From the NCBI GenBank assembly GCA_022844135.1, contig JALHMG010000052.1, forward strand, positions 1 to 33,784: a stretch of 33,784 nucleotides of DNA. Direction: 5' to 3'. The translations under genes were made by a program, and so were the position numbers. Below, one piece after another: positions 16,171 through 27,176 of this stretch. The notes beneath the pieces were generated by a model. That model made no database searches and was not told the origin of the DNA. It worked only from the letters and a program-made list of their open reading frames with translations. The stretch is from Lysobacterales bacterium. GTDB taxonomy: Bacteria; Pseudomonadota; Gammaproteobacteria; Xanthomonadales; SZUA-5. Position 1 is the first letter of the stretch; the number at the start of each line of letters is the position of its first letter.

Positions 16171-16590
16171 TTACTGCTCACCCATAAACCGCATCTTCGC
16201 CGCCGCGATCATCGGCGGCAGCGTGTGGCCTTCGGCGAGCGCCACCATCACTGTGTCGTCGCCGGCAATGGTTCCGGCCTGACCGGGCAGCGGTTGATGG
16301 TCGAGCACGACGGCGAGGGCGTTGGCGAAACCTGGGCGCGTTCGCATCACAATCAGGTTCGGTGGCGCCGCGATGATCGCCACGGCTGTCGGACTGCCGT
16401 CGCCGGGCGGCGCGTAACGCCCACCGCGTTTGGTAATGCCCAGGCGGGTAAGATGGCGCGACAGCGTTGGTTGGCTGACATGCATGCCCATCCGCTCCAA
16501 CCCTAGCTGCAGTTCGTACTGATCGACGATACGTTCATTGCAAACGAGGTCGAGCAGCGTTTCATCGAGTTTGCTGGAGGTGCGCGGCAT
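16171..16590 (-). CDS. argR: Arginine repressor ArgR
   Basis: A 139-residue protein matching ArgR: an N-terminal winged helix-turn-helix (about residues 1-70, with VSQPTLSRHLTRLGITKRGGRY) and a C-terminal hexamerisation/arginine-binding domain (about 75-139) with the GTIAGDDTVMVAL motif that supplies the arginine-contacting Asp residues. It should repress arginine synthesis when arginine is abundant. An ATG at 16617 is possible, but it would fall inside the predicted -10 region, so MPRTSSKL at 16590 is preferred. It is divergent from argD across two palindromes, which suggests control of itself and of the whole argD-argC run. Confidence 0.93.
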   Translation of the reverse strand: MPRTSSKLDETLLDLVCNERIVDQYELQLGLERMGMHVSQPTLSRHLTRLGITKRGGRYAPPGDGSPTAVAIIAAPPNLIVMRTRPGFANALAVVLDHQPLPGQAGTIAGDDTVMVALAEGHTLPPMIAAAKMRFMGEQ

Positions 16591-16593
16591 AGC

Positions 16594-16622
16594 TTGCGTT
16601 CGCAATACGGTTTGCATAATAT
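16594..16622 (+). promoter_or_regulatory. Predicted argD promoter
   Basis: TTGCGT (16594-16599) as -35 and TAATAT (16617-16622) as -10 are 17 bp apart. The -10 lies within the first ArgR-type palindrome, so repressor binding would block it. The start site should lie near 16629, leaving a leader of about 20 bases with no evident ribosome binding site. Confidence 0.5.
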
Positions 16623-16645
16623 GCGCTTCAGTCGCATTTTATGCA
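16613..16645. promoter_or_regulatory. Two tandem ARG-box-like operators
   Basis: TGCATAATATGCG (16613-16625) and CGCATTTTATGCA (16633-16645) are AT-centred palindromes with GCAT/ATGC arms. Their centres are 20 bp apart, close to the two-turn spacing of paired ARG boxes in E. coli (TGAAT-W4-ATTCA), and they sit between argR and argD. The changed arm sequence is unlike the E. coli consensus but the geometry fits. Confidence 0.7.
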
Positions 16646-16653
16646 ATTACATG
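16618..16653 (-). promoter_or_regulatory. Predicted argR promoter
   Basis: Read on the minus strand, TTGCAT is followed after 17 bases by CATATT just before the ATG at 16617. Both hexamers overlap the palindromes, consistent with ArgR autoregulation. This placement argues that translation starts at the downstream ATG, 16590. Confidence 0.4.
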
Positions 16654-17784
16654 AGCGCACTTCTAGACACTTACGCAGCCTGGCCATTCGAACTCGATCA
16701 CGGCAAAAACGATGTCGTGGTCAGCGCCGATGGCGTGGCTTATGCCGACTGGTACGGCGGTCACTGCGTAACCCTGACAGGACATTGCCATCCGCGGGTA
16801 GTGGGTGCGATCAAGGCCCAGGCCGACAAGCTGTTGTTCTATTCCGCAGCGGCCAGGTTGTCGATTCGCGCGCGCGCGGCCGATGCACTGATTGCGCATC
16901 TGGCTGGCGCCGGGGTCGAGCGCGTGTTCTTCTGCAACTCGGGCGCCGAGGCGAACGAGAACGCGTTGAAGATGGCGCTCAAGGCCACGGGCAGAAAGCG
17001 CATTGCGTGCTTCGAAGGTGGCTGGCACGGTAGAACCTTGCTGGCGCTCTCCGCCACCGACGATGCGAAGATCGTCGCACCGTTCGCGCCGTTCCTGGTG
17101 CCCGCGACGCAACTGCCGTTCAACGACGTCAGTGCACTGCTCGCGACCGACTTCGGCGACATCGCGGCGGTCATCGTCGAACCCATTCAGAGCATGTCCG
17201 GTATCCGTGCCGCATCGAGCGCATGGTGGCAAACGCTGCGCGCGCGCACTGCTGCGGCCGGCACATGGCTGATCATCGATGAGATCCAGACTGGGTTAGG
17301 CCGGGTCGGCGCCAGCAGCGCCTCGCTGCTGATGGGCATCGAGCCTGAAGCGATTACGCTCGCAAAAGGCTTGGCTTCGGGCGTACCGATTGGCGCAACG
17401 CTGTTTTCAGGATCGGCCGCGAGCACGATCCGCCAGGGCGACCTGGGCAGCACGTTCGGCGGCGGACCGCTGGCGATGGCGGCGCTGATCGCCACGCTTG
17501 AAGTAATCGCCGACGAGGGTCTCATCGAGCGCGCCGCGCGCATCGGCGCGCAGCTCAAGGCGCAATTGCCGGGCGCAGCGGTCGCGTCGGTGCTGGGCGA
17601 GGGCTTGTTGCTGGGCCTGCGCACGCATGAGCCGGGGGCAGGATTGAAGAAGCATCTTTACGATCGACGCATGCTCGTCGGCGCCTCCGGCGATCCGCAT
17701 GTGTTGCGATTGATGCCGCCATTGACGATCAGCGACGATGCGGTCGCCGCATTGACGAGCGCAATCAACGAACTTGGAGCTTGA
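16651..17784 (+). CDS. argD: Acetylornithine (or acylornithine) aminotransferase
   Basis: A 377-residue class-III PLP aminotransferase that would convert N-acylglutamate semialdehyde to N-acylornithine with glutamate as amino donor. Landmarks are VFFCNSGAEANENALKMAL, FEGGWHGRTLLALSAT, LIIDEIQTGLGR and the Schiff-base lysine in ITLAKGLASG. The start is ATG 16651 (MSALLDTYAAWP), six bases after the second operator, with no Shine-Dalgarno sequence; it may be leaderless or poorly initiated. It is the first gene of the arginine cluster, with only 3 bp before the transcarbamylase gene. Acetyl versus succinyl preference cannot be read from the sequence. Confidence 0.93.
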   Translation: MSALLDTYAAWPFELDHGKNDVVVSADGVAYADWYGGHCVTLTGHCHPRVVGAIKAQADKLLFYSAAARLSIRARAADALIAHLAGAGVERVFFCNSGAEANENALKMALKATGRKRIACFEGGWHGRTLLALSATDDAKIVAPFAPFLVPATQLPFNDVSALLATDFGDIAAVIVEPIQSMSGIRAASSAWWQTLRARTAAAGTWLIIDEIQTGLGRVGASSASLLMGIEPEAITLAKGLASGVPIGATLFSGSAASTIRQGDLGSTFGGGPLAMAALIATLEVIADEGLIERAARIGAQLKAQLPGAAVASVLGEGLLLGLRTHEPGAGLKKHLYDRRMLVGASGDPHVLRLMPPLTISDDAVAALTSAINELGA

Positions 17785-17787
17785 CTC

Positions 17788-18786
17788 ATGCGTCACTACA
17801 CGCACCTCAAAGACCTCGGTGTTTCTGGACAGCAGAAGTTGCTGAAACTCGCCGCCGACTACAAGCGCGCCGAGCCCGGTCCGATCTTGAAGAACAAGGT
17901 ACTCGGCATGTTGTTCTTCAATCCCTCCTTGCGTACCCGTACCAGTTTTGAGGTGGCGATGCTCAAGCTCGGCGGCCAGTCGGTGGCCCTGGAAGAGGGC
18001 AGCGGCGTCTGGAAGCTGGAAACCGAAGACGGCGCGCCGATGAACGCCGACAAGGCCGAACATGTGCGCGAAGCGGCGGCCGTGCTATCGCGCTATGTGG
18101 ATGTGCTCGGCGTGCGCGCTTTTTCGCGCGGCATGGGCCAGGCCGACGACGATCGCGATCGCGTCATCAACTCGTTCCGCGAGCATGCGCGCGTGCCGCT
18201 CATCAGCCTGGAGTCGGCGCGCGAACATCCGTGCCAGGGGCTGGCCGACATGCTCACGATTCGCGAAAGCTTTGGGCAGACGCAAGGCGTGAACGTCGTC
18301 CTGAGCTGGGCGCCGCACGTCAAACCATTGCCCAAAGCGGTGCCGAGTTCGGTACTGCTGCACGCCGCCGCCGCCGGTTGTTCGATCACCGTGGCGCATC
18401 CGCCCGGGTTCGAGCTGGGCGCAGCGGTGCGCGAAGAAGCCGCACAATATGCGGCACAAAGCGGCGCCAAGATTCGCTATACGCACGATCAGCGCGAGGC
18501 GCTCAATGGCGCGCATGTGGTCTATGCCAAAGCCTGGGGGCCGGAGCCGCGCCAGAGCGAGGAGGGCATTGTCGCCTCGCCTGCGTTGCGTGGCTGGATG
18601 CCCACCGTCAAGCACTTCGATACGTGCGCCGACGACGCCATTTTTCTGCACTGCCTGCCGGTACGTCGCGACGTCGAAGTCGGCAGCGATGTGCTCGACT
18701 CCGAACGCGCGCGTGTCATCGACGAAGCCGAAAATCGCATGTGGGTGCAGATGGCCGCGCTGGCGTGGTTGTTTGAACGCGCCTGA
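17788..18786 (+). CDS. argF': N-acylornithine carbamoyltransferase (AOTCase/SOTCase type)
   Basis: A 332-residue transcarbamylase acting on N-acylornithine instead of ornithine, giving N-acylcitrulline. Carbamoyl-phosphate motifs are FFNPSLRTRTSFE (about 43-55), HPCQGLADM (147-155) and HCLPVRR (288-294). The segment WKLETEDGAPMNADKAEH corresponds to WKLETE...DKPEH of the Bacteroides fragilis succinylornithine enzyme, and WAPHVKPLPKAVPSS also resembles that enzyme more than Xanthomonas AOTCase (comparison from memory). The selectivity residue (Glu92 in Xanthomonas, Pro90 in Bacteroides) is Ala90 here. After HCLPVRR the Xanthomonas carboxylated Lys302 is replaced by Glu297. Acyl specificity is therefore open. 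Confidence 0.88.
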   Translation: MRHYTHLKDLGVSGQQKLLKLAADYKRAEPGPILKNKVLGMLFFNPSLRTRTSFEVAMLKLGGQSVALEEGSGVWKLETEDGAPMNADKAEHVREAAAVLSRYVDVLGVRAFSRGMGQADDDRDRVINSFREHARVPLISLESAREHPCQGLADMLTIRESFGQTQGVNVVLSWAPHVKPLPKAVPSSVLLHAAAAGCSITVAHPPGFELGAAVREEAAQYAAQSGAKIRYTHDQREALNGAHVVYAKAWGPEPRQSEEGIVASPALRGWMPTVKHFDTCADDAIFLHCLPVRRDVEVGSDVLDSERARVIDEAENRMWVQMAALAWLFERA

Positions 18787-18884: not shown

Positions 18885-19787
18885 ATGCCCTTCGCCGCCA
18901 ACCCCTACGATGCTCTCAAAGGCCTGTCGAAATACCTCCGTCAGTTCCGCGGCAAAACCTTCGTCGTCAAGCTTGGCGGCGAGGTATTGGACGATCCGGA
19001 ATCGCGGCGGCGCGTCGTCGAGCAAATCGGCGTGTTGTGGACGTTGTCGATTCGCGTCGTTGTGGTCCATGGCGGCGGCGCGCAGCTCGATGCGCTGTGC
19101 CAGAAATTGGATCTGCCGATCGAGAAGCAAGGCGGCCGTCGCGTGACCACCGCGCCGGTGTTGGACGCGGCGAAGATGGTGTTCCGCGGCGTCGCCAATA
19201 CCGATCTGTTGGCCGAGATGAATCGCGTCGGTGTGCCGGGTGTGGGCCTTAGCGGCGTCGATGCGGGAATGATCAAAGCCAAGAAGCGCGCGCCGATTTA
19301 TCTTGGCGAGGACAACGGCAAGCCGCAGTTGTTCGATTTCGGTTTTGTCGGCGATGTCGAGCAAGTCGATCCGACGCTGCTCAATCACCTGTTGAGCGAA
19401 GACTACGTGCCCGTGATCGCGCCGCTCTCGGGTTCGCCCGATGGCAACGTTTACAACACGAACGCCGACACCATCGCCTCGCAGATCGCCATGGTGCTGG
19501 GCGCTGAGAAGCTGTTTTTCGTGCTCAAGGTGCCGGGCTTGCTCAAGGACATGAACAACCCCTCCTCGCTCATCACCTTTGCGGCGCTGTCGAAACTCGA
19601 CGAGATGGAAGCGCGCGGCGAGTTGGGCGGCGGCATGTTGCCCAAAGCCGCTGCCATCCGTGGCGCGTTGAACGCCGGCGTCAAGTCCGTGCATCTGGTC
19701 TCGGGCGTGCAGCCCGACGCGCTGCTGGTCGAGTGCTTCACCAACGAAGGCGCCGGCACGATGATTGTCCGGGATAGCGAGGCGTGA
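18885..19787 (+). CDS. argB: Acetylglutamate (acylglutamate) kinase, kinase domain only
   Basis: A 300-residue amino-acid kinase that would phosphorylate N-acylglutamate. Landmarks are FVVKLGGEVL with the catalytic Lys, VVVHGGGAQLDAL, GLSGVDAGMI and VYNTNADTIASQIAM; it ends TNEGAGTMIVRDSEA. ATG 18885 precedes the first family-like segment. In Xanthomonas and relatives ArgB is about 440 residues because a GNAT acetyltransferase (NAGS) domain follows the kinase; here the reading frame stops right after the kinase domain. The operon thus has no recognisable acylglutamate synthase by this route. It lies 98 bp after argF'. Confidence 0.92.
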   Translation: MPFAANPYDALKGLSKYLRQFRGKTFVVKLGGEVLDDPESRRRVVEQIGVLWTLSIRVVVVHGGGAQLDALCQKLDLPIEKQGGRRVTTAPVLDAAKMVFRGVANTDLLAEMNRVGVPGVGLSGVDAGMIKAKKRAPIYLGEDNGKPQLFDFGFVGDVEQVDPTLLNHLLSEDYVPVIAPLSGSPDGNVYNTNADTIASQIAMVLGAEKLFFVLKVPGLLKDMNNPSSLITFAALSKLDEMEARGELGGGMLPKAAAIRGALNAGVKSVHLVSGVQPDALLVECFTNEGAGTMIVRDSEA

Positions 19788-19882
19788 GCAGTACACAAAG
19801 GTTCCAGACGAAAGTCTCGACGCCCATCATGCGCCTGAAGTCCTGCACCTGGCGGATCGCTCGAAGCCGAGCCAATCCAACT

Positions 19883-19926
19883 CCCTCTCCCGCCTGGGCG
19901 GGAGAGGGTTGGGGTGAGGGTGGGGT
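19883..19926 (+). repeat. CCCTCTCCCGCC hairpin repeat, copy 1
   Basis: Arms CCCTCTCCCGCC (19883-19894) and GGCGGGAGAGGG (19897-19908) form a perfect 12-bp stem with a 2-base centre, followed by the tail TTGGGGTGAGGGTGG. The same unit occurs inverted at 20046-20085. This repeat type is widely dispersed between genes in many proteobacteria. Confidence 0.8.
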
Positions 19927-20045
19927 GGTTGCGAGCGTGCGAATGAAGCTTTCGTTCAAGAATTCCGGTCGACCAGGATTGGAACGCCCGAGCCACTCAG
20001 TATTGAAACTTATGCCTGCTGCCGATCGCTCCGTAGCACCGGCTC

Positions 20046-20085
20046 CACCCTCACCCCAACCCTCTCCCGCCTAGGCGGGAGAGGG
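20046..20085 (-). repeat. CCCTCTCCCGCC hairpin repeat, copy 2 (inverted)
   Basis: The reverse complement of copy 1: CCACCCTCACCCCAA, then arms CCCTCTCCCGCC (20060-20071) and GGCGGGAGAGGG (20074-20085) around TA. Head-to-head pairing with copy 1 makes a long-range inverted repeat spanning about 200 bp just before argH. Confidence 0.8.
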
Positions 20086-20113
20086 GGCAGGTCTCGCTTC
20101 GTAGGCAGTGCTT

Positions 20114-21478
20114 ATGTCGTCTCCCAGTACTCAATCCCAAGCCCTCTGGGCCAAAGGCCTGCCGCTCGATGCGGCGATCCATCGATTCACCGTGGGCGAC
20201 GATCCTCGTCTGGATCGTGTGCTGCTGGCGCACGATTGTGTGGGCTCGGCCGCGCATGCGCGTGGGTTGCACGCGGCGGGTCTGCTCAGTGCCGACGATG
20301 CGCGCGCGCTGGTTGCTGCGCTGGCCGAGTTGCACGGCGCTGCGCAGCGCGGCGAGATCGACATCACTCCTGAGCAGGAGGATGCGCATACGGCCATCGA
20401 ACATGCGCTAGTGGCGCGCGTCGGCGAGGCCGGCAAACGGATTCACCTGGGGCGTTCGCGCAACGATCAGGTATTGCTCGCGCTGCGCCTTTGGCTGCGC
20501 CAGCAGCTCATCGCGACGGCGCGCGGATTGCACAACCTCATCGACGCGCTGCTCGCTCTGGCAAGCACGCACGAGCATGTTGCGTTGCCCGGTTACACGC
20601 ACCTGCGCCGCGCGATGCCATCGAGCCTGGGACAGTGGGCCGCCGGTTACATCGAAGGTCTGCTTGAGGAGTTGCATGCGCTCGATGGCGTATGGATACG
20701 CATCGACCGTTGCCCGCTCGGCGCCGCCGCAGGCTTTGGCGTCCCGCTGCCGCTAAAGCGCGAGGTGGTTGCCGAGTGGCTTGGCTTCTCACGCGTGCAG
20801 CGCGCGCCGGTGGATGCGATGAACTCGCGCGGCCGCCACGAGCAGGCGCTGCTGGACGCCTACGCGGCGGTCGCCCACACGCTCGAGAAGCTGATCTGGG
20901 ATTTGTCGTTGTACTCGACCGATGAGTTCGGCTTTGTGCAGTTGCCGGATGCCTTCACCACCGGCTCATCGATCATGCCGCAAAAGCGCAATCCGGACGT
21001 GCTGGAGTTGGCGCGCGCGCGCTGTCGCGAATTGCGCGGTTTCAGCGATTGGCACCGGCACATTGTGACCGGATTGCCTGGCAGTTATCACCGCGACTTT
21101 CAGTTGCATAAGCAGCCGCTGTTCGCCGCAAGCGACAGCATGCTGGCCCTGCTCGATGTGCTGACGCGACTCGTTCCCGGCCTGAAGTTCGATGCCGCCG
21201 CGATGCGCGGCGCGATGAGCCCGGAGTTGTATGCGACGCACGCGGCGATCGCGAAGGTGCGCAGCGGAGCGACCTTCCGCGACGCTTACCGCGAAGTCGG
21301 CGGCGCGATCGCGAATGGCAGCTTCGAAGCTCCGCACATCTTGCCGAGCGATACCCATATTGGTGGCCTGGACCAGCTTGGCCTCGATCAATATCGGCAG
21401 GAACTGACGGCATTGGCGGCGATCTTCGATGTGCGCAAAGATCTGCTCGCCGCCGTTGAGCAACGCGTATTTTCTTGA
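20114..21478 (+). CDS. argH: Argininosuccinate lyase
   Basis: A 454-residue fumarase/aspartase-superfamily enzyme that splits argininosuccinate into arginine and fumarate. The signature GSSIMPQKRNPD is intact, as are HLGRSRNDQVLLALR and the catalytic-His region LPGYTHLRRAMP. The ATG at 20114 is preferred to a GTG two codons earlier. The next gene, argG, starts just after the stop. It is separated from argB by repeats, so it may have its own promoter. Confidence 0.95.
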   Translation: MSSPSTQSQALWAKGLPLDAAIHRFTVGDDPRLDRVLLAHDCVGSAAHARGLHAAGLLSADDARALVAALAELHGAAQRGEIDITPEQEDAHTAIEHALVARVGEAGKRIHLGRSRNDQVLLALRLWLRQQLIATARGLHNLIDALLALASTHEHVALPGYTHLRRAMPSSLGQWAAGYIEGLLEELHALDGVWIRIDRCPLGAAAGFGVPLPLKREVVAEWLGFSRVQRAPVDAMNSRGRHEQALLDAYAAVAHTLEKLIWDLSLYSTDEFGFVQLPDAFTTGSSIMPQKRNPDVLELARARCRELRGFSDWHRHIVTGLPGSYHRDFQLHKQPLFAASDSMLALLDVLTRLVPGLKFDAAAMRGAMSPELYATHAAIAKVRSGATFRDAYREVGGAIANGSFEAPHILPSDTHIGGLDQLGLDQYRQELTALAAIFDVRKDLLAAVEQRVFS

Positions 21479-21495
21479 AACAACGGACCCAACTC

Positions 21496-22695
21496 ATGTC
21501 GCAAAAACCCTTGTGCGTACTCGCATTCTCCGGCGGCCTCGACACCTCGTTCTGCGTTCTGCACTTGCGCGAGCGCGGTTTCGATGTGGCAACGATTACG
21601 GTCAACACCGGCGGCTTCGATGGTGCGGAGCTGGCGCGCATCGAGGCGGCCTCGAAGAATCTCGGTGCAGTCTCGCATCTGACCGTCGATGCGCGCGCCG
21701 AGCTGTGGCACGACTACTTGCGCTATCTGCTGTACGGCAATGTGCTGCGCGGGCAGCTGTATCCCTTAAGCGTTTCCGCCGAGCGCGTGGCGCAGGCCAG
21801 GTGCGTCGCCCAGTACGCGAAGGCGCAGGGCGCCAAGGCCATCGCGCACGGATCGACCGGCGCCGGCAACGATCAGGTGCGATTCGACGTGGCGTTTCGG
21901 GCGTTGTGTCCGGGCATCGAGTTGATTACGCCGATTCGCGAGCTGGCGCTGTCGCGCGAAGACGAAACTGCGTGGTTGGCCGAGCGCGGTGTCGCGATTC
22001 CAGCGAAGACCACGCAGTACTCGATCAACGAAGGCATGTGGGGCACGTCCGTCGGCGGCGGTGAAACGCACGACTCGTGGCGGCATTTGCCGGAAGGCGC
22101 CTATCCTGGCGGTGGCATCGATGCCCTTCAAGCGCCGACAACGCTGACCTTGGGCTTCACGCAAGGCGTGCCGACGGCGATGAACGGCGAAGCGCTCGCT
22201 CCGGTGGCCCTGATCGAGAAGCTCAATGCGCTCGGCGATCGCTACGGCGTCGGTCGTGGCATCCACCTGGGCGACACGATTCTCGGCATCAAGGGGCGCG
22301 TCGGTTTCGCGGCAGCGGCGGCACACATCCTGATTCAGGCGCACCGCGAGCTGGAGAAACTGGTGCTCAGTGGCAAGCAGTTGTTCTGGAAAGAATCGCT
22401 GGGCAATCTCTACGGCAGCCTGCTGCATGAGGGCCACTATTTCGATCCGCTGGCACGCGATCTTGAGGCGTTCCTGGCGTCGAGCCAAACAACGGTCACG
22501 GGCGATGCGCGATTGACGCTCTATCCCCGAGCGATCGTCGTGGAAGGCGTACGCTCGCCACATAGCTTCATGCAGTCCAAAGTCGCGAGCTACGGCGAGG
22601 GTGCGAAAGCATGGACCGGAGAAGACGCCAAAGGTTACTGCAAGCTCTTTGGCATTGCGCAGCAAATAGCGCTTGGCGCGCGGGAGGCAATATGA
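21496..22695 (+). CDS. argG: Argininosuccinate synthase
   Basis: A 399-residue ATP-dependent ligase joining citrulline and aspartate. The PP-loop LAFSGGLDTS is at residues 8-17, and HGSTGAGNDQVRFD and YSINEGMWGTSVGGGETHD (about residues 175-193) are typical. ATG 21496 gives the conserved start MSQKPLCVLAFSGGLD; a TTG at 21475 overlapping the argH stop is possible but extends past the family start. The argG stop overlaps the next ATG by 4 bp (ATGA). Confidence 0.95.
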   Translation: MSQKPLCVLAFSGGLDTSFCVLHLRERGFDVATITVNTGGFDGAELARIEAASKNLGAVSHLTVDARAELWHDYLRYLLYGNVLRGQLYPLSVSAERVAQARCVAQYAKAQGAKAIAHGSTGAGNDQVRFDVAFRALCPGIELITPIRELALSREDETAWLAERGVAIPAKTTQYSINEGMWGTSVGGGETHDSWRHLPEGAYPGGGIDALQAPTTLTLGFTQGVPTAMNGEALAPVALIEKLNALGDRYGVGRGIHLGDTILGIKGRVGFAAAAAHILIQAHRELEKLVLSGKQLFWKESLGNLYGSLLHEGHYFDPLARDLEAFLASSQTTVTGDARLTLYPRAIVVEGVRSPHSFMQSKVASYGEGAKAWTGEDAKGYCKLFGIAQQIALGAREAI

Positions 22696-23741
22696 GAATC
22701 ACCGTCGACAAGATCGCCAGCGTAACCCGCAATCTCAAGCTCGCGCGCACGCTCACCCTGAGCGAAAACATCCTCGTCGAAGAAGGCTCGGTGGTCGCAG
22801 TTCGCGTGCACGGCGAGAAATCGACATACAACCAACTCGAAGACACGCACGGGCGATGGATGACGCTGCATGATGGCGATCTTGTGGTCGGTGCGCTCGG
22901 CAAGCGTCATGCGCTGCATGGCTACGAAGGAGTGATGCCGACCTCTCTGGCGGTGGGCGATACCATCAACATGCTCAACATCGGCGGCGTGATGGGGCAG
23001 TGCGTATCGTTCAACCCGGATGTCGGTAAGCCGTTCCAACTGGAAGTACTGGGCCAGGTGCTGAACTTTCCGGAGTTCCAGTCGCGCCAGGGCATACCGG
23101 CGCACGTGCGGCACAACGCGCTGCAGGGTGTGCGCGATGCCCCGAAAGTGCCCATCGTGTTCATCCTCGGCACGTGCATGAATTCAGGGAAGACGCTCGC
23201 CGGTTCAGCCATCGTGCGTGCGCTGCATCAGAGCGGATTGAAGGTCGGCGGCGCCAAGCTCACCGGTATCTCGCTGATGCGCGACACGCTGCACTTGTAC
23301 GATCACGGCGCCGAGGTGATCGCCGACTTCACCGACGCTGGAGTGGTCTGCTCCGGTCCCGAGAGTGCGGCGCAAACGGCGCATACCGTGCTCTCCGAGA
23401 TCGCAGCGAAAGGCGTCGATGTGATCGTCGCCGAAACTGGCGATGGCGTGATGGGTGAGTACGGCGTGCAGGCCATTCTCGACGACGCAGGATTGCGCGC
23501 GCAGTGCGCGTGCTTCGTGTTTTGCGCCAACGACCCGGTCGGCGTGAAGGGCGGCGTCGATTATTTGAAGGCCAGCTACAGCATCGATGTCGATATCGTC
23601 GCCGGCCCGGCCACCGATAATCGCGTCGGTTCGCGCTTCGTCGAGCGCCTCAATATCCCGGCGCGCAATGCACGCGTCGATCCCAAAGCGCTCGGCGATC
23701 TGGCGCTGGAGAAGGTGCGTGCGTTCAGGAGTGGCCGATGA
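22692..23741 (+). CDS. P-loop protein of DUF1611 type; candidate acylglutamate synthase
   Basis: A 349-residue protein embedded between argG and argC with 4-bp ATGA overlaps on both sides, so it is almost certainly made with them. Residues 1-150 form an unrecognised, probably beta-rich domain (EEGSVVAVRVHGEKSTYNQL, VVGALGKRHALHGYEG). Residues 152-349 are a P-loop domain of the dethiobiotin-synthetase/MobB/DUF1611 kind: Walker A GTCMNSGKT (160-168), AKLTGISLMRD (188-198), and Walker-B-like VDVIVAETGDGVMGEYG (242-258). From memory, one DUF1611 protein (DgcN) has been reported as a D-glutamate N-acetyltransferase. With no GNAT domain on ArgB and no argA here, an acyl transfer to glutamate is a reasonable hypothesis, not proven. 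An amidoligase-like or regulatory role is the alternative. Confidence 0.75.
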   Translation: MRITVDKIASVTRNLKLARTLTLSENILVEEGSVVAVRVHGEKSTYNQLEDTHGRWMTLHDGDLVVGALGKRHALHGYEGVMPTSLAVGDTINMLNIGGVMGQCVSFNPDVGKPFQLEVLGQVLNFPEFQSRQGIPAHVRHNALQGVRDAPKVPIVFILGTCMNSGKTLAGSAIVRALHQSGLKVGGAKLTGISLMRDTLHLYDHGAEVIADFTDAGVVCSGPESAAQTAHTVLSEIAAKGVDVIVAETGDGVMGEYGVQAILDDAGLRAQCACFVFCANDPVGVKGGVDYLKASYSIDVDIVAGPATDNRVGSRFVERLNIPARNARVDPKALGDLALEKVRAFRSGR

Positions 23742-24787
23742 TCGATGTCGTCATCCTCGGCGCCTCGGGGTACGGCGGTGGGGAGTTGCTCCGGCTGCTC
23801 TGTCAGCATCCGCAGGTGCGCTCGATCGCTGCTCTGTCGCGGCAATACGCGGGCAAACCGATCCATGCGGCGCATCCACATTTGCGCGGCTTGGTGCCTC
23901 TGAGTTTCGTCGCTGAGTACGACTGGACTGAATTGCGCAACAGCGACTCGCCTGTTGTGTTCGCAGCGATGCCGCACGGCGAGTTTGCCAGGCAATATGC
24001 GGCGCTCGAAGAAGCGTGGGCTGAGGCGCGCTTGCTCGATCGCATCGCCGTGATCGACCTCTCCGGCGATTTCCGCTTGAAAGATGCGGCGGCGTTCGAG
24101 GCGGCCTATGGCTTCGCACATCCGTGCCCGCAGGCACTGGAACAATTCACTTACGGCCTGAGCGAGTGGAATGGCGCGGCGATCGCGGCGAGCAGGCGCA
24201 TCGCCAATCCGGGATGCTTCGCTACGGCGGTCCAGCTTGGTTTGCTGCCGCTGAAGGCGCTCGATCTGGCTTGCCCCTCGTGGGTGGCGATCAGCGCAAT
24301 CACCGGCTCCAGCGGTTCTGGTGCCAGCGCCTCGGAGACCACGCACCATCCCACTCGCGCGCAGGATTTTCGTGCCTACAAAGTGCTGCAGCACCAGCAC
24401 GAAAGCGAAATCCGCTGCTCGTTGCAGGCGCACGGTGCGAACATCGATTTTGCGCTCGTGCCGCACTCGGCGCCGCTGGTTCGCGGCATCTTCGCCACGC
24501 TGACATTTCCCAGTACGGCAACCTCGGGAGAGATCCGCGTGGCGTTCGACAGTGCCTATCGGGAGGCGTTTTTCGTGCGCATGGTTGATTCCACGCCGCG
24601 CATCGCCGCTGTCGCTGGCAGTAACTTCACCGATATCGCGGTCGGCGCCAGGAACGGGAACGCCACTGTGCTCGTGGCGCTCGACAATCTGCTCAAGGGA
24701 ATGGCTGGACAGGCGGTGCAGAATCTGAATCTAGTGCTCGGCATCGACGCCACCACGGGCCTGCGCGCAGCGGCGGCATTTCCGTAA
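23738..24787 (+). CDS. argC: N-acetyl(acyl)-gamma-glutamyl-phosphate reductase
   Basis: A 349-residue NADP-dependent reductase producing N-acylglutamate semialdehyde. The Rossmann motif GASGYGGGELLRLL is at residues 8-21, the catalytic cysteine is in ANPGCFATA (about Cys156), and the dimer/substrate region includes ITGSSGSGASASETTHHP. It is the last gene of the arginine run; the start overlaps the P-loop gene by ATGA. The deacylase, argA and carAB genes needed for the full route are not in the window. Confidence 0.95.
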   Translation: MIDVVILGASGYGGGELLRLLCQHPQVRSIAALSRQYAGKPIHAAHPHLRGLVPLSFVAEYDWTELRNSDSPVVFAAMPHGEFARQYAALEEAWAEARLLDRIAVIDLSGDFRLKDAAAFEAAYGFAHPCPQALEQFTYGLSEWNGAAIAASRRIANPGCFATAVQLGLLPLKALDLACPSWVAISAITGSSGSGASASETTHHPTRAQDFRAYKVLQHQHESEIRCSLQAHGANIDFALVPHSAPLVRGIFATLTFPSTATSGEIRVAFDSAYREAFFVRMVDSTPRIAAVAGSNFTDIAVGARNGNATVLVALDNLLKGMAGQAVQNLNLVLGIDATTGLRAAAAFP

Positions 24788-24857: not shown

Positions 24858-27176
24858 ATGCGCTCGTTGGGTTGTCTACTGCTTATCGGTGTTTCGATGG
24901 CCAGTGCCGAATCGGGTTCTGGTGTGTCGTGGGTGGGGTCTCTCGTTGAGCCGACATCCAAGACCGTCGACATGCGCAGTCTGACGCCTTCGCCGGCGTG
25001 GCGCCCGGGCGATCCGATCGTCGACATTCCCAGGCGCATGGGTGGCGATTCCCCACAAGCTGAGGTTCCGTCCTTACCTCCGACAGGTCACGACCTGCTG
25101 GCAGATCGGCAACGCTTGCATCGTGGCGCTGCGCCATCGAACTTGTCCAGTCCGCTGATCAATATCAATACGATCGCCAACACCAATGTCAACCCCAACG
25201 ACCCGACCATGGATGTGGGTACCCTGCAGGTCGTCGTTGCAATCAACAGCCTTAACGGCGCCGAGTTTGTGGTTTACGACAAGATCACCGGCAGCACCGT
25301 CGTTCCGCGCTCCACGATGCGCCAACTGGGCGCCGGTTTTCCCTGCGGTACCAACGGTAATGGCGATGCGATTGTGCTGTTCGACGAGATCGCGTCGCGT
25401 TGGCTGCTGACGGAGTTTGCGCCCGGATCGAATGTGCTGTGTACCTATCTGAGCGATCGCGCCGACTTGTCGGGCACCGTCGTCTGGTCGCACTACGTGT
25501 TCAACACCCCCGGCTTTCCGGATTATCCAAAGTATGGCGTGTGGCCCAACGCGTATTTCGTCGCCGCCAATGAGGCGGGCACGTCGGGCGAACGGCCCGT
25601 GTATGCGCTCGATCGTTTGGCGATGTTGGCTTTTCAACCCGCTTCCTTGCAGCGTTTCACCACACCGCGACTCGCCGGATTCCTTTTCGAGGCGCTGCAG
25701 CCTGCGGACATCGCCGGGTCGGACCTGTTGCCATTGAGCATGCCCGGCCTGTTCCTGCGCCACTACGATGACGAGGCCCACGACCCGGCCAATAACGATC
25801 CCAAGCGCGACTTTCTGGAGCTTTTCGAGCTGCACGTCGACTTCGCCCAGCCAGCGAACTCTCGATTGGAAGGTCCGACACGATTTAAGGTTGCCGAGTT
25901 CAGTTCGAACCTCGTGAACCTTTCCACGTTCTTCGTTTTTCCGCAGCCCAACGGCATCCGGCTGGATGCGCTGCGCGAACAGGTCATGCATCGCGCGGTG
26001 TACAGGCGCTATCCGGGATACGAGTCGATTGTCGCCAACCACGTCACCGATTTGTTCCTTGGGCCGGAGTCGCTCTATCCCGACGACACCGGTGCCGTCC
26101 GTTGGTACGAATTGCGCCGCGGCGGTCAGGCCTCGGAATTGCTGACGACCGGCTTCGAAGCCAACGATACCGCCGGGCGTTGGGCGCTCCACCAACAAGG
26201 CACGTATGCACCCGAAGATGCGCCGGGCGTGCCCGCCGATCAGGCCGATCGCTGGATGGCGGCGATGTCGCTGGATGCCGTGGGCAACATCGGCATGGCC
26301 TACAACATCGTGCGCGATGGCAGCACGCCCATTCCGGCCGGCATTCGCTTCACCGGTCGACTGGCGTCCGATCCGCTCGGTGTCATGACTGCGCCGGAAA
26401 CCGTGATCGTGAACGGCAGCGGCAGCATCGGCGGCGCGCGCTGGGGCGACTACAACGATATGGGTGTCGATCCGGTCGACGGCTGCACGTTCTGGTTCGC
26501 CGGCAACTACACCAGCGGCGGGGCGCGTGCCAATCGGCTCGCCTCGTTCAAGTTCGACAACTGTGTCCGGCAGGGGATAGGGATGTCGCTGACGAACCCC
26601 AGCGTGGCGATCTGCGCGTCGCAAGCAACTCCAACGCTGGCGCCGCCGCTCGCGCTCGAAATGACGATGTCGCCCGGAATTGAGGGTCCGGTCGAGTTGT
26701 CGGTGCAAGCGCCATTGCCGCCTGGAATCAGCGTCAGCATCCAACCCGGTAACCTTACGCCACCGGGGCAAGCGACTGTGGTCGTCGGCGCGAACAATAC
26801 AGCCCCAAGTTTGTCGACGCTTTTCGTGGTGGGCAACGCGTCTGACTATTCGCAGCGCGCGCCGATCCTGGCCCGTGTCGCGACACAAATGCCGATCGCG
26901 CCCACGCTCACGGTGCCGCCGCCAGAGGCGACGAATGTGCAACTGGTGCCCACCTTCACCTGGGGCGGCGTGGCGCAGGCTACGAGCTATCGCATCGAGG
27001 TGGCACACAACATCACCTTCTCGCCGGTTTTCTTCGCCGAGTCGGTGACGAGCACCAGCCTGCGCTCACCCATCAGTCTGCCGCCATCGGCCACGCTTTT
27101 TTGGCGCGTCCGCGCGTCGAACGTCTGCGGCGATAGCGCCTACACGCTGGCCAGTTTCACAACTGCCGAGATGTGA
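24858..27176 (+). CDS. Large secreted protein with C-terminal fibronectin-III-like domain
   Basis: A 772-residue exported protein with a signal peptide ending about MASA (residue 17). The middle (about residues 85-580) is an unrecognised domain with ITGSTVVPRSTMRQLG, PDYPKYGVWPNAYFVAANEA and WGDYNDMGVDPVDGCTFWFAGNYTSGG, reminiscent of the solvent-exposed blades of a beta-propeller. Residues about 580-690 look like an Ig-type domain. The last 90 residues (PPPEATNVQLVPTFTWGG, YRIEVAHNITF, FWRVRASNVCG) resemble a fibronectin type III domain. A surface or extracellular binding/enzyme role is inferred. Such modular secreted proteins are common in Xanthomonadales. No catalytic motif identified. No ribosome binding site is evident at ATG 24858. 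Confidence 0.75.
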   Translation: MRSLGCLLLIGVSMASAESGSGVSWVGSLVEPTSKTVDMRSLTPSPAWRPGDPIVDIPRRMGGDSPQAEVPSLPPTGHDLLADRQRLHRGAAPSNLSSPLININTIANTNVNPNDPTMDVGTLQVVVAINSLNGAEFVVYDKITGSTVVPRSTMRQLGAGFPCGTNGNGDAIVLFDEIASRWLLTEFAPGSNVLCTYLSDRADLSGTVVWSHYVFNTPGFPDYPKYGVWPNAYFVAANEAGTSGERPVYALDRLAMLAFQPASLQRFTTPRLAGFLFEALQPADIAGSDLLPLSMPGLFLRHYDDEAHDPANNDPKRDFLELFELHVDFAQPANSRLEGPTRFKVAEFSSNLVNLSTFFVFPQPNGIRLDALREQVMHRAVYRRYPGYESIVANHVTDLFLGPESLYPDDTGAVRWYELRRGGQASELLTTGFEANDTAGRWALHQQGTYAPEDAPGVPADQADRWMAAMSLDAVGNIGMAYNIVRDGSTPIPAGIRFTGRLASDPLGVMTAPETVIVNGSGSIGGARWGDYNDMGVDPVDGCTFWFAGNYTSGGARANRLASFKFDNCVRQGIGMSLTNPSVAICASQATPTLAPPLALEMTMSPGIEGPVELSVQAPLPPGISVSIQPGNLTPPGQATVVVGANNTAPSLSTLFVVGNASDYSQRAPILARVATQMPIAPTLTVPPPEATNVQLVPTFTWGGVAQATSYRIEVAHNITFSPVFFAESVTSTSLRSPISLPPSATLFWRVRASNVCGDSAYTLASFTTAEM

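Follow-up and report, generated by a model that had tools for sequence, protein, structure and literature searches.

Arginine biosynthesis genes and their embedded P-loop gene

This report concerns a gene for a 349-residue P-loop protein that lies inside an arginine biosynthesis cluster of a Lysobacterales bacterium (order Xanthomonadales, family SZUA-5) and is a candidate for the first enzyme of that pathway. The stretch analysed, hereafter called the window, comprises the 33,784 nucleotides of contig JALHMG010000052.1 (assembly GCA_022844135.1), and belongs to a 5.34-Mb draft genome of 75 contigs that is 99.83% complete. A Pfam/NCBIfam scan gave, from left to right, a divergent argR, an argD-like gene, a transcarbamylase gene, argB, argH, argG, the P-loop gene and argC:

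16174..16617, minus strand: arginine repressor ArgR, reading away from the rest of the cluster (PF02863 and PF01316 above cut-off)
16594..17784, plus strand: class-III aminotransferase, argD-like (PF00202 above cut-off; probable start near 16651, by eye)
17788..18786, plus strand: transcarbamylase with N-succinylornithine-type residues A90/P182/E297 (X. campestris 92/185/302; residue criterion of PMC4581275)
18885..19787, plus strand: argB, acylglutamate kinase, kinase domain only (TIGR00761 above cut-off; NAT domain not found)
20108..21478, plus strand: argH, argininosuccinate lyase (TIGR00838 above cut-off; probable start ATG 20114, by eye)
21475..22695, plus strand: argG, argininosuccinate synthase (TIGR00032 above cut-off; probable start ATG 21496, by eye)
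22682..22687, plus strand: GGGAGG, likely ribosome-binding site of the P-loop gene, within argG (from the sequence)
22692..23741, plus strand: P-loop protein, 349 residues, candidate N-succinylglutamate (acylglutamate) synthase (context, homologues, fold)
23169..23195, plus strand: Walker A/P-loop motif GTCMNSGKT, residues 160-168 (alignments, conservation count)
23738..24787, plus strand: argC, N-acylglutamyl-phosphate reductase (TIGR01850 above cut-off; ATGA overlap with the P-loop gene)

The P-loop reading frame starts with the ATG at 22692 and shares four bases with the argG stop (22692-22695), and its own stop shares four with the argC start (23738-23741). Since the start lies inside the end of argG behind GGGAGG and the stop overlaps argC, the gene is very likely co-translated with both neighbours. 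ArgB was matched by amino-acid kinase models only (PF00696, TIGR00761), and the argD-like aminotransferase scored 311 bits with TIGR00707, under that model's cut-off of 410. An earlier reading made from the letters without database searches (the sequence-only reading) had described the two 4-bp overlaps, an ArgB that ends after its kinase domain and an unrecognised N-terminal region of about 150 residues in the P-loop protein; all three observations were confirmed, residues 1 to about 150 having no family match in Pfam or NCBIfam.

No Pfam or NCBIfam model was passed by the P-loop protein as a whole. PF07755 (DUF1611), whose cut-off is 25 bits, aligned with residues 146-186 only and scored 14.7 bits (E 0.021); it weakly matches nine of 12 members encoded among arg genes (arg-type members; best E 0.0011), and L035, a distant relative outside the arg clade, passes it at 26.7 bits over the P-loop stretch only. 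Searching the PDB with the sequence found no relative at E 0.001, and profile searches, with no E value better than 0.016, returned short stretches only, among them the P-loops of SRP54, dethiobiotin synthetase and MobB. A full-length structure model (predicted local distance difference test, pLDDT, 54.4) matched signal recognition particle (SRP) GTPases, HypB and dethiobiotin synthetase, and these matches were used for assignment to the SIMIBI class only. The model of residues 145-349, built from six sequences, was confident (pLDDT 80.5, predicted template-modelling score 0.84); the other four models ranged from 42.6 to 62.4. When the PDB chains ranked highest by Foldseek were aligned with VIA-align, this C-terminal model scored highest, Z 14.6 in each case, with 2g0t, a DUF1611 protein, and with CTP synthetase; further scores included 13.8 for the DUF1611 protein 2obn, 13.4 for MeaB, 12.8 for dethiobiotin synthetase and 12.7 for DgcN (7xrj). 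The matched regions (2g0t residues 154-338, 2obn 148-348, DgcN 127-332) begin at residue 127 to 154, indicating that an N-terminal part followed by a P-loop domain is a layout common to these proteins. The description of the protein as DUF1611-type was therefore partly right: it is related in P-loop and fold, but membership was rejected because the score falls under the cut-off.

Residues G160, G166, K167 and T168 are invariant in all 17 arg-type and all 16 other members compared. Among the residues kept in 17/17 arg-type members and rare or absent in the 16 others are K43, Y46, N47, G255, G258, D309 and N310, which are candidates for substrate binding. D-glutamate is the acceptor of DgcN. The PDB title of 7xrj calls DgcN an N-acetyltransferase, and two papers assign it to a route leading from D-glutamate to L-glutamate; to that extent the statement of the sequence-only reading that DgcN has been reported to acetylate glutamate was borne out.

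Distribution of the P-loop gene and of known first-step enzymes

The P-loop gene was found in all nine genomes of the family (70-94% identity; the 70% case, G005, is a 102-residue fragment at a contig end), in eight more among 369 genomes of the class, outside the order (45-64%), and in one more among 398 genomes of the phylum, outside the class (44%). The class and phylum samples were drawn evenly from larger groups and partly overlap. Weaker relatives (25-36% identity) occur in other genomes, and named relatives were five contigs of metagenome-assembled genomes, labelled Lysobacterales bacterium (4) and Xanthomonas sp. (1). Eight plasmid records carry relatives of 25-44% identity, some annotated as DUF1611 or dethiobiotin synthase; among the viral contigs scanned, none was confirmed.

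The gene lies among arg genes in 18 genomes, in 17 of which the first gene matched on one side is argC; in G002 only argG was seen, the 1.9 kb left before the contig ends having no argC match. On the other side argG is nearest in 16/18, the exceptions being G005 (contig end, argC only) and G673. Both genes flank it in seven of the nine family genomes, and they are the nearest matched genes in the eight class genomes, the argG match of G225 being partial (289 of 406 residues). Two gene orders were observed, D-F-B-H-G-P-C and G-P-C-D-F-B-H (F, transcarbamylase; P, P-loop gene). The overlaps seen in the window are not general, and gaps of some 100 to 650 bases occur in several genomes. The gene and its neighbours are conserved across families and orders, which rules out chance. 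The block in G673 consists of argR, the P-loop gene, argC and argB, with no other arg gene matched in 19.5 kb, and this minimal association points to a role in the first step. In a tree of 33 proteins, built without the G005 fragment and some weak relatives, the 17 arg-linked proteins fell on one side of a branch with support of 99/98.

Known enzymes for this step were sought with three models. In the whole genome from which the window comes (the own genome), the ArgA model TIGR01890 matched only argB and one stand-alone GNAT protein (30 bits), both under its cut-off; it was above cut-off in none of 25 genomes, 17 of them with the P-loop gene, and the E. coli control passes. ArgJ (PF01960) had no match in the own genome and was matched in 10 of 14 control genomes, the own genome being the one P-loop genome covered by that search. 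The NAT domain (PF04768) was likewise absent from the own genome, as it was from the 14 control genomes of that search; across 61 genomes of the order, however, it was found in 0/9 inside the family versus 46/52 outside. Pfam shows a kinase-only ArgB in the window, G002 and G673 and for seven of the eight class genomes, the eighth lying outside the scan. Seven of the 17 P-loop genomes show no GNAT match with the ArgA model (including G005, 80% complete, which has no match at all), a model that misses other GNAT synthases, being silent on the NAT part of G009. The sequence-only reading had held that argA is missing and had expected the P-loop gene to accompany the absence of argA and argJ. The first statement stands for a two-domain ArgA above cut-off and for NAT, whereas a GNAT synthase elsewhere in the own genome is possible; the second agrees with the NAT counts within the order and, for ArgJ, with the lack of a match in the own genome.

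The stand-alone GNAT protein is encoded in a 319-residue frame at L047 4513-5469 (G000:C23), which is not an arg neighbour and whose contig end also bears an ileS-like open reading frame (by eye). Six genomes of the order outside the family carry no NAT. No transcarbamylase was matched in four of these (G016, G041, G047, G053), and G026 and G032 reached only 96-113 bits, so that the six are probably no counter-examples; arginine auxotrophy or a different route may explain them.

Outside the arg clade, distant relatives (about 30% identity) at L035, L036, L037, L132, L133 and L215 directly adjoin an M20 peptidase gene, the pair spanning L036 6996-9915, L132 4348-7197 and L133 7402-10246. A flavin reductase gene stands on the far side of the M20 gene in these last three, and L133 also neighbours an MtrB/PioB porin gene. 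G225 carries both an M20-linked relative and the arg type. A general rule of P-loop gene plus deacylase was rejected because the M20-linked relatives fall outside the arg clade, and they were left out of the evidence for an arginine role. At L041, L042, L043, L129, L130 and L135 the relative is followed by a gene of about 550-580 codons, which Pfam identifies as encoding an ABC exporter in L041, L129 and L135 and which was assigned by length only in L042, L043 and L130; a porin-like gene lies further on in L042.

The transcarbamylase, the deacylase and the acyl group

Acetylornithine-type transcarbamylases carry Glu92, Asn185 and Lys302 (X. campestris numbering), and succinylornithine-type enzymes carry A/S/P/V/Q, P and V/I/E at these places, according to PMC4581275. 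The window enzyme has Ala, Pro and Glu, which agrees with the succinyl rule and not with the acetyl rule. A transcarbamylase was seen in 15 P-loop genomes and not in three others (G006, G292, G673). At position 92 the 15 have A (9), P (5) or V (1), all within the succinyl set; position 185 is P in 14 and A in one, and position 302 is E in 11, V in two and A in two. By contrast, E/N/K was found throughout in 22/22 genomes of the order without a P-loop gene beside the transcarbamylase, these being the inspected subset of 48 outside-family genomes with a transcarbamylase match. The P-loop set and the others split in the transcarbamylase tree with support of 100/99, so that the residues record one old difference rather than 15 independent ones. 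In the alignment with the top PDB match, 3l02, Ala stands at the Glu92 place. The finding of succinyl-type residues in the transcarbamylase of the cluster is the main addition to the earlier claim.

A deacylase gene of the M20 type (PF01546) was found near the arg genes in none of the 13 P-loop genomes searched (of 18), the nearest on the same contig being more than 50 kb away; the arg genes of G292 are on two short contigs. In 4/4 NAT-bearing controls an M20 gene lay beside the arg genes, recognised there only by its place beside NAT or the transcarbamylase; G011 and G014 among these four showed transcarbamylase residues of the acetyl type, the other two being G009 and G013. The own genome contains three full-length M20 genes, not one of which reaches the cut-off of the ArgE model TIGR01892: DapE, which adjoins dapD, a TIGR01891 amidohydrolase with a signal-like start, and a 477-residue M20 protein with below-cut-off dipeptidase matches. 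NCBIfam typing covered these three, and there are three more weak PF01546 matches (24-28 bits). Elsewhere, typing was by BLAST against these own-genome proteins only and covered part of the M20 genes; the sole strong M20 match of G424 is DapE-like. DapE removes succinyl from a lysine precursor. Because of that activity, and because no M20 gene was found by the arg genes in the genomes searched, DapE is a natural candidate for the desuccinylase, and the best one that we can infer. Together with the absence of an M20 deacylase by the arg genes, the succinylornithine-type transcarbamylase residues suggest that the acyl group is probably succinyl rather than acetyl.

Two other features of the window were noted. 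Between argB and argH a palindromic repeat is present in two copies (19881-19925 and 20045-20087) of the CCCTCACCCCAACCCTCTCCCGCC / GGCGGGAGAGGG type, and downstream of argC a large open reading frame of 772 codons (24858-27176) begins with what appears by eye to be a signal peptide.

Predicted pathway, alternative explanations and related systems

The P-loop protein is predicted to catalyse the first step, N-acylation of L-glutamate, most likely with succinyl, a reading that we regard as probable though far from firm. We infer the reaction, the acyl group, its donor and the part of DapE from gene content and order, signature residues, distribution and the C-terminal model. The gene occurs with argB and argC, down to the argR-P-argC-argB block, in genomes without NAT or a two-domain ArgA, and would thus most simply supply the acylation. 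Glutamate is acylated in this pathway so that the later semialdehyde does not cyclise, according to PMC4490483. Following acylation, ArgB would phosphorylate N-succinylglutamate and ArgC would reduce the product; the ArgD-like transaminase would then yield N-succinylornithine, which the neighbouring transcarbamylase would convert to N-succinylcitrulline. A desuccinylase encoded elsewhere, with DapE as the best candidate, would release citrulline, and ArgG and ArgH would complete arginine. The C-terminal P-loop domain, of the SIMIBI class and the DUF1611/DgcN fold, is the probable binding site for the phosphates of succinyl-CoA, those of ATP being less likely; the rest of the active site presumably comes from the N-terminal domain of about 150 residues. 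Acyl transfer from CoA is plausible in view of the fold shared with DgcN. Since the P-loop gene and the loss of NAT coincide in the order, and since G673 has the gene in a block with argR, argC and argB alone, a first-step enzyme other than a GNAT is the best supported role, as the sequence-only reading had proposed, although acetyl is probably the wrong acyl group. The wider claim has slightly less than an even chance in our estimate: that the protein represents a new family of SIMIBI P-loop N-succinylglutamate synthases, unrelated to GNAT synthases and ArgJ, starting a complete succinyl pathway in several Pseudomonadota lineages with DapE shared between lysine and arginine synthesis.

Several observations weigh against these predictions. 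Ala at position 302 (2/15) and at 185 (1/15) lies outside the published succinyl set, and the transcarbamylase and P-loop genes share one cluster, so that the 15 cases are not independent. The window enzyme passes NF003384 (N-acetylornithine carbamoyltransferase) with 388 bits at a cut-off of 288, and the PDB entries that it matches best are acetylornithine ones from X. campestris and not the B. fragilis enzyme. The succinyl-binding residues of the latter are given as H176, R178 and R278 in PMC4581275, and the assignment made here derives from positions 92/185/302, with those three outside the comparison. The N-terminal residues 1-150 gave no reliable structure model, and the DUF1611-fold match is not specific, given that functionally unrelated SIMIBI proteins tie with it (CTP synthetase and MeaB at the values above, FtsY/Ffh at 12.7). 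Long branches were flagged by the tree tool. The own genome also contains 29 PF00583 (GNAT) matches, any of which could acylate glutamate, and encodes the succinyltransferase DapD.

The chief alternative, suggested by the fold relation to CTP and dethiobiotin synthetases, is an ATP-dependent ligase, which would activate succinate or another acid by phosphorylation and then couple it to glutamate at the amino group. In dethiobiotin synthetase, CTP synthetase and cobyrinic acid diamide synthase, ATP activates an oxygen, which an amine then attacks. All three lie within about 2 Z of the DUF1611 match, the weak PDB profile matches include the P-loops of dethiobiotin synthetase and MobB (E 0.02-0.07), and the P-loop residues G160, G166, K167 and T168 are kept throughout; however, an intact P-loop could hold CoA phosphates without ATP hydrolysis, and DgcN, a DUF1611-fold enzyme with a named activity, bears the title of N-acetyltransferase. 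Such a ligase would perform the same step and overlaps with the prediction of an N-acylating enzyme; we consider it unlikely, at roughly one chance in a handful. An enzyme that makes N-acetylglutamate, with transcarbamylase residues that do not report the acyl group in this lineage, would agree with the title of DgcN and with the acetyl-specific name given by NF003384, but all three diagnostic positions are of non-acetyl type in 15/15 genomes and an M20 deacylase near the arg genes was found in 0/13, which leaves this version rather improbable.

A different protein elsewhere, a GNAT or DapD, may make acylglutamate, with the P-loop protein as an accessory such as a regulator or a chaperone-like SIMIBI NTPase. 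In Bacteroides the probable N-succinylglutamate synthase BT3761 is a GNAT. The many PF00583 matches of the own genome, one of which scores 30 bits with the ArgA model, the presence of DapD, which uses succinyl-CoA, and MeaB and HypB among the structural matches are compatible with this, and a short stand-alone GNAT synthase or an unusual DapD activity could be a source of acylglutamate there. Yet none of the PF00583 matches, searched in the own genome only, is on the window contig, seven of 17 P-loop genomes show no GNAT match with the ArgA model, for all that the model misses other GNAT synthases, and a single clade is kept with the arg genes; an accessory role is unlikely, a little more so than the ligase. 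Least probable, and only a slight chance in our view, is a transacylase that moves the acyl group from N-acylcitrulline to glutamate and so covers both the first and the deacylation steps. ArgJ closes such an acyl cycle in the acetyl pathway. Neither step has a known gene in the clusters, and argG, whose product uses citrulline, neighbours the gene in 16/18 genomes as argC does in 17/18. The cycle would still require a priming enzyme, though, the DapE of the own genome could perform the deacylation, and in G673 the gene stands with argC and argB, not argG; ArgJ is absent from the structural matches shown, which says little.

If the prediction of a P-loop N-succinylglutamate synthase is true, it means that arginine synthesis can also begin with an enzyme that is no GNAT, and it extends the succinyl pathway beyond Bacteroidetes. 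It would also correct the name of these transcarbamylases, the one in the window being called acetyl-specific by the NCBIfam model, close an apparent gap in predictions of arginine prototrophy, and offer, for part of a P-loop family that lies outside the Pfam and NCBIfam models, a function that can be tested. With N-succinylglutamate as the product, complementation of an E. coli argA mutant could be falsely negative, because the ArgB and ArgE of E. coli act on acetylated substrates.

How does this system compare with those already described? A literature search, with subscription papers mostly outside its reach, returned no account of a P-loop first enzyme or of a Gammaproteobacterial succinyl pathway. 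DUF1611 proteins (PF07755; 2g0t, 2obn) and DgcN (7xrj) resemble the P-loop protein in having an N-terminal part of about 125-155 residues and, after it, a P-loop domain with the fold modelled here. Unlike them, the P-loop protein scores below the PF07755 cut-off, has an unmatched N-terminal domain, is encoded among arg genes and has L-glutamate as its presumed acceptor.

Succinylated arginine intermediates are described for Bacteroides and other Bacteroidetes in PMC7311316, where BT3761 is the probable N-succinylglutamate synthase and the desuccinylase candidate is BT3549, distantly related to DapE. BT3761 is more than 50% identical to Cabys_1732, and this type is described in PMC5317091 as limited to Bacteroidetes and C. 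abyssi. By these descriptions, the Bacteroidetes pathway resembles the one proposed here in its succinylornithine-type transcarbamylase, in having no ArgA or ArgJ candidate and in a proposed DapE-like desuccinylase (here DapE itself), and is set apart by its first enzyme, thought to be BT3761 there and the P-loop protein here, in Pseudomonadota. A precedent for an N-acetylglutamate synthase (NAGS) unrelated in sequence to the other known ones is the Corynebacterium C-NAGS, as described in PMC4490483. The acetyl pathway of the Xanthomonas type, with an ArgB-NAT fusion, an acetylornithine transcarbamylase and an M20 deacetylase, belongs to the same order and likewise carbamoylates an N-acylornithine, whereas the system described here has no NAT domain, other diagnostic residues, a transcarbamylase on the other side of the tree and no M20 gene by its arg genes.

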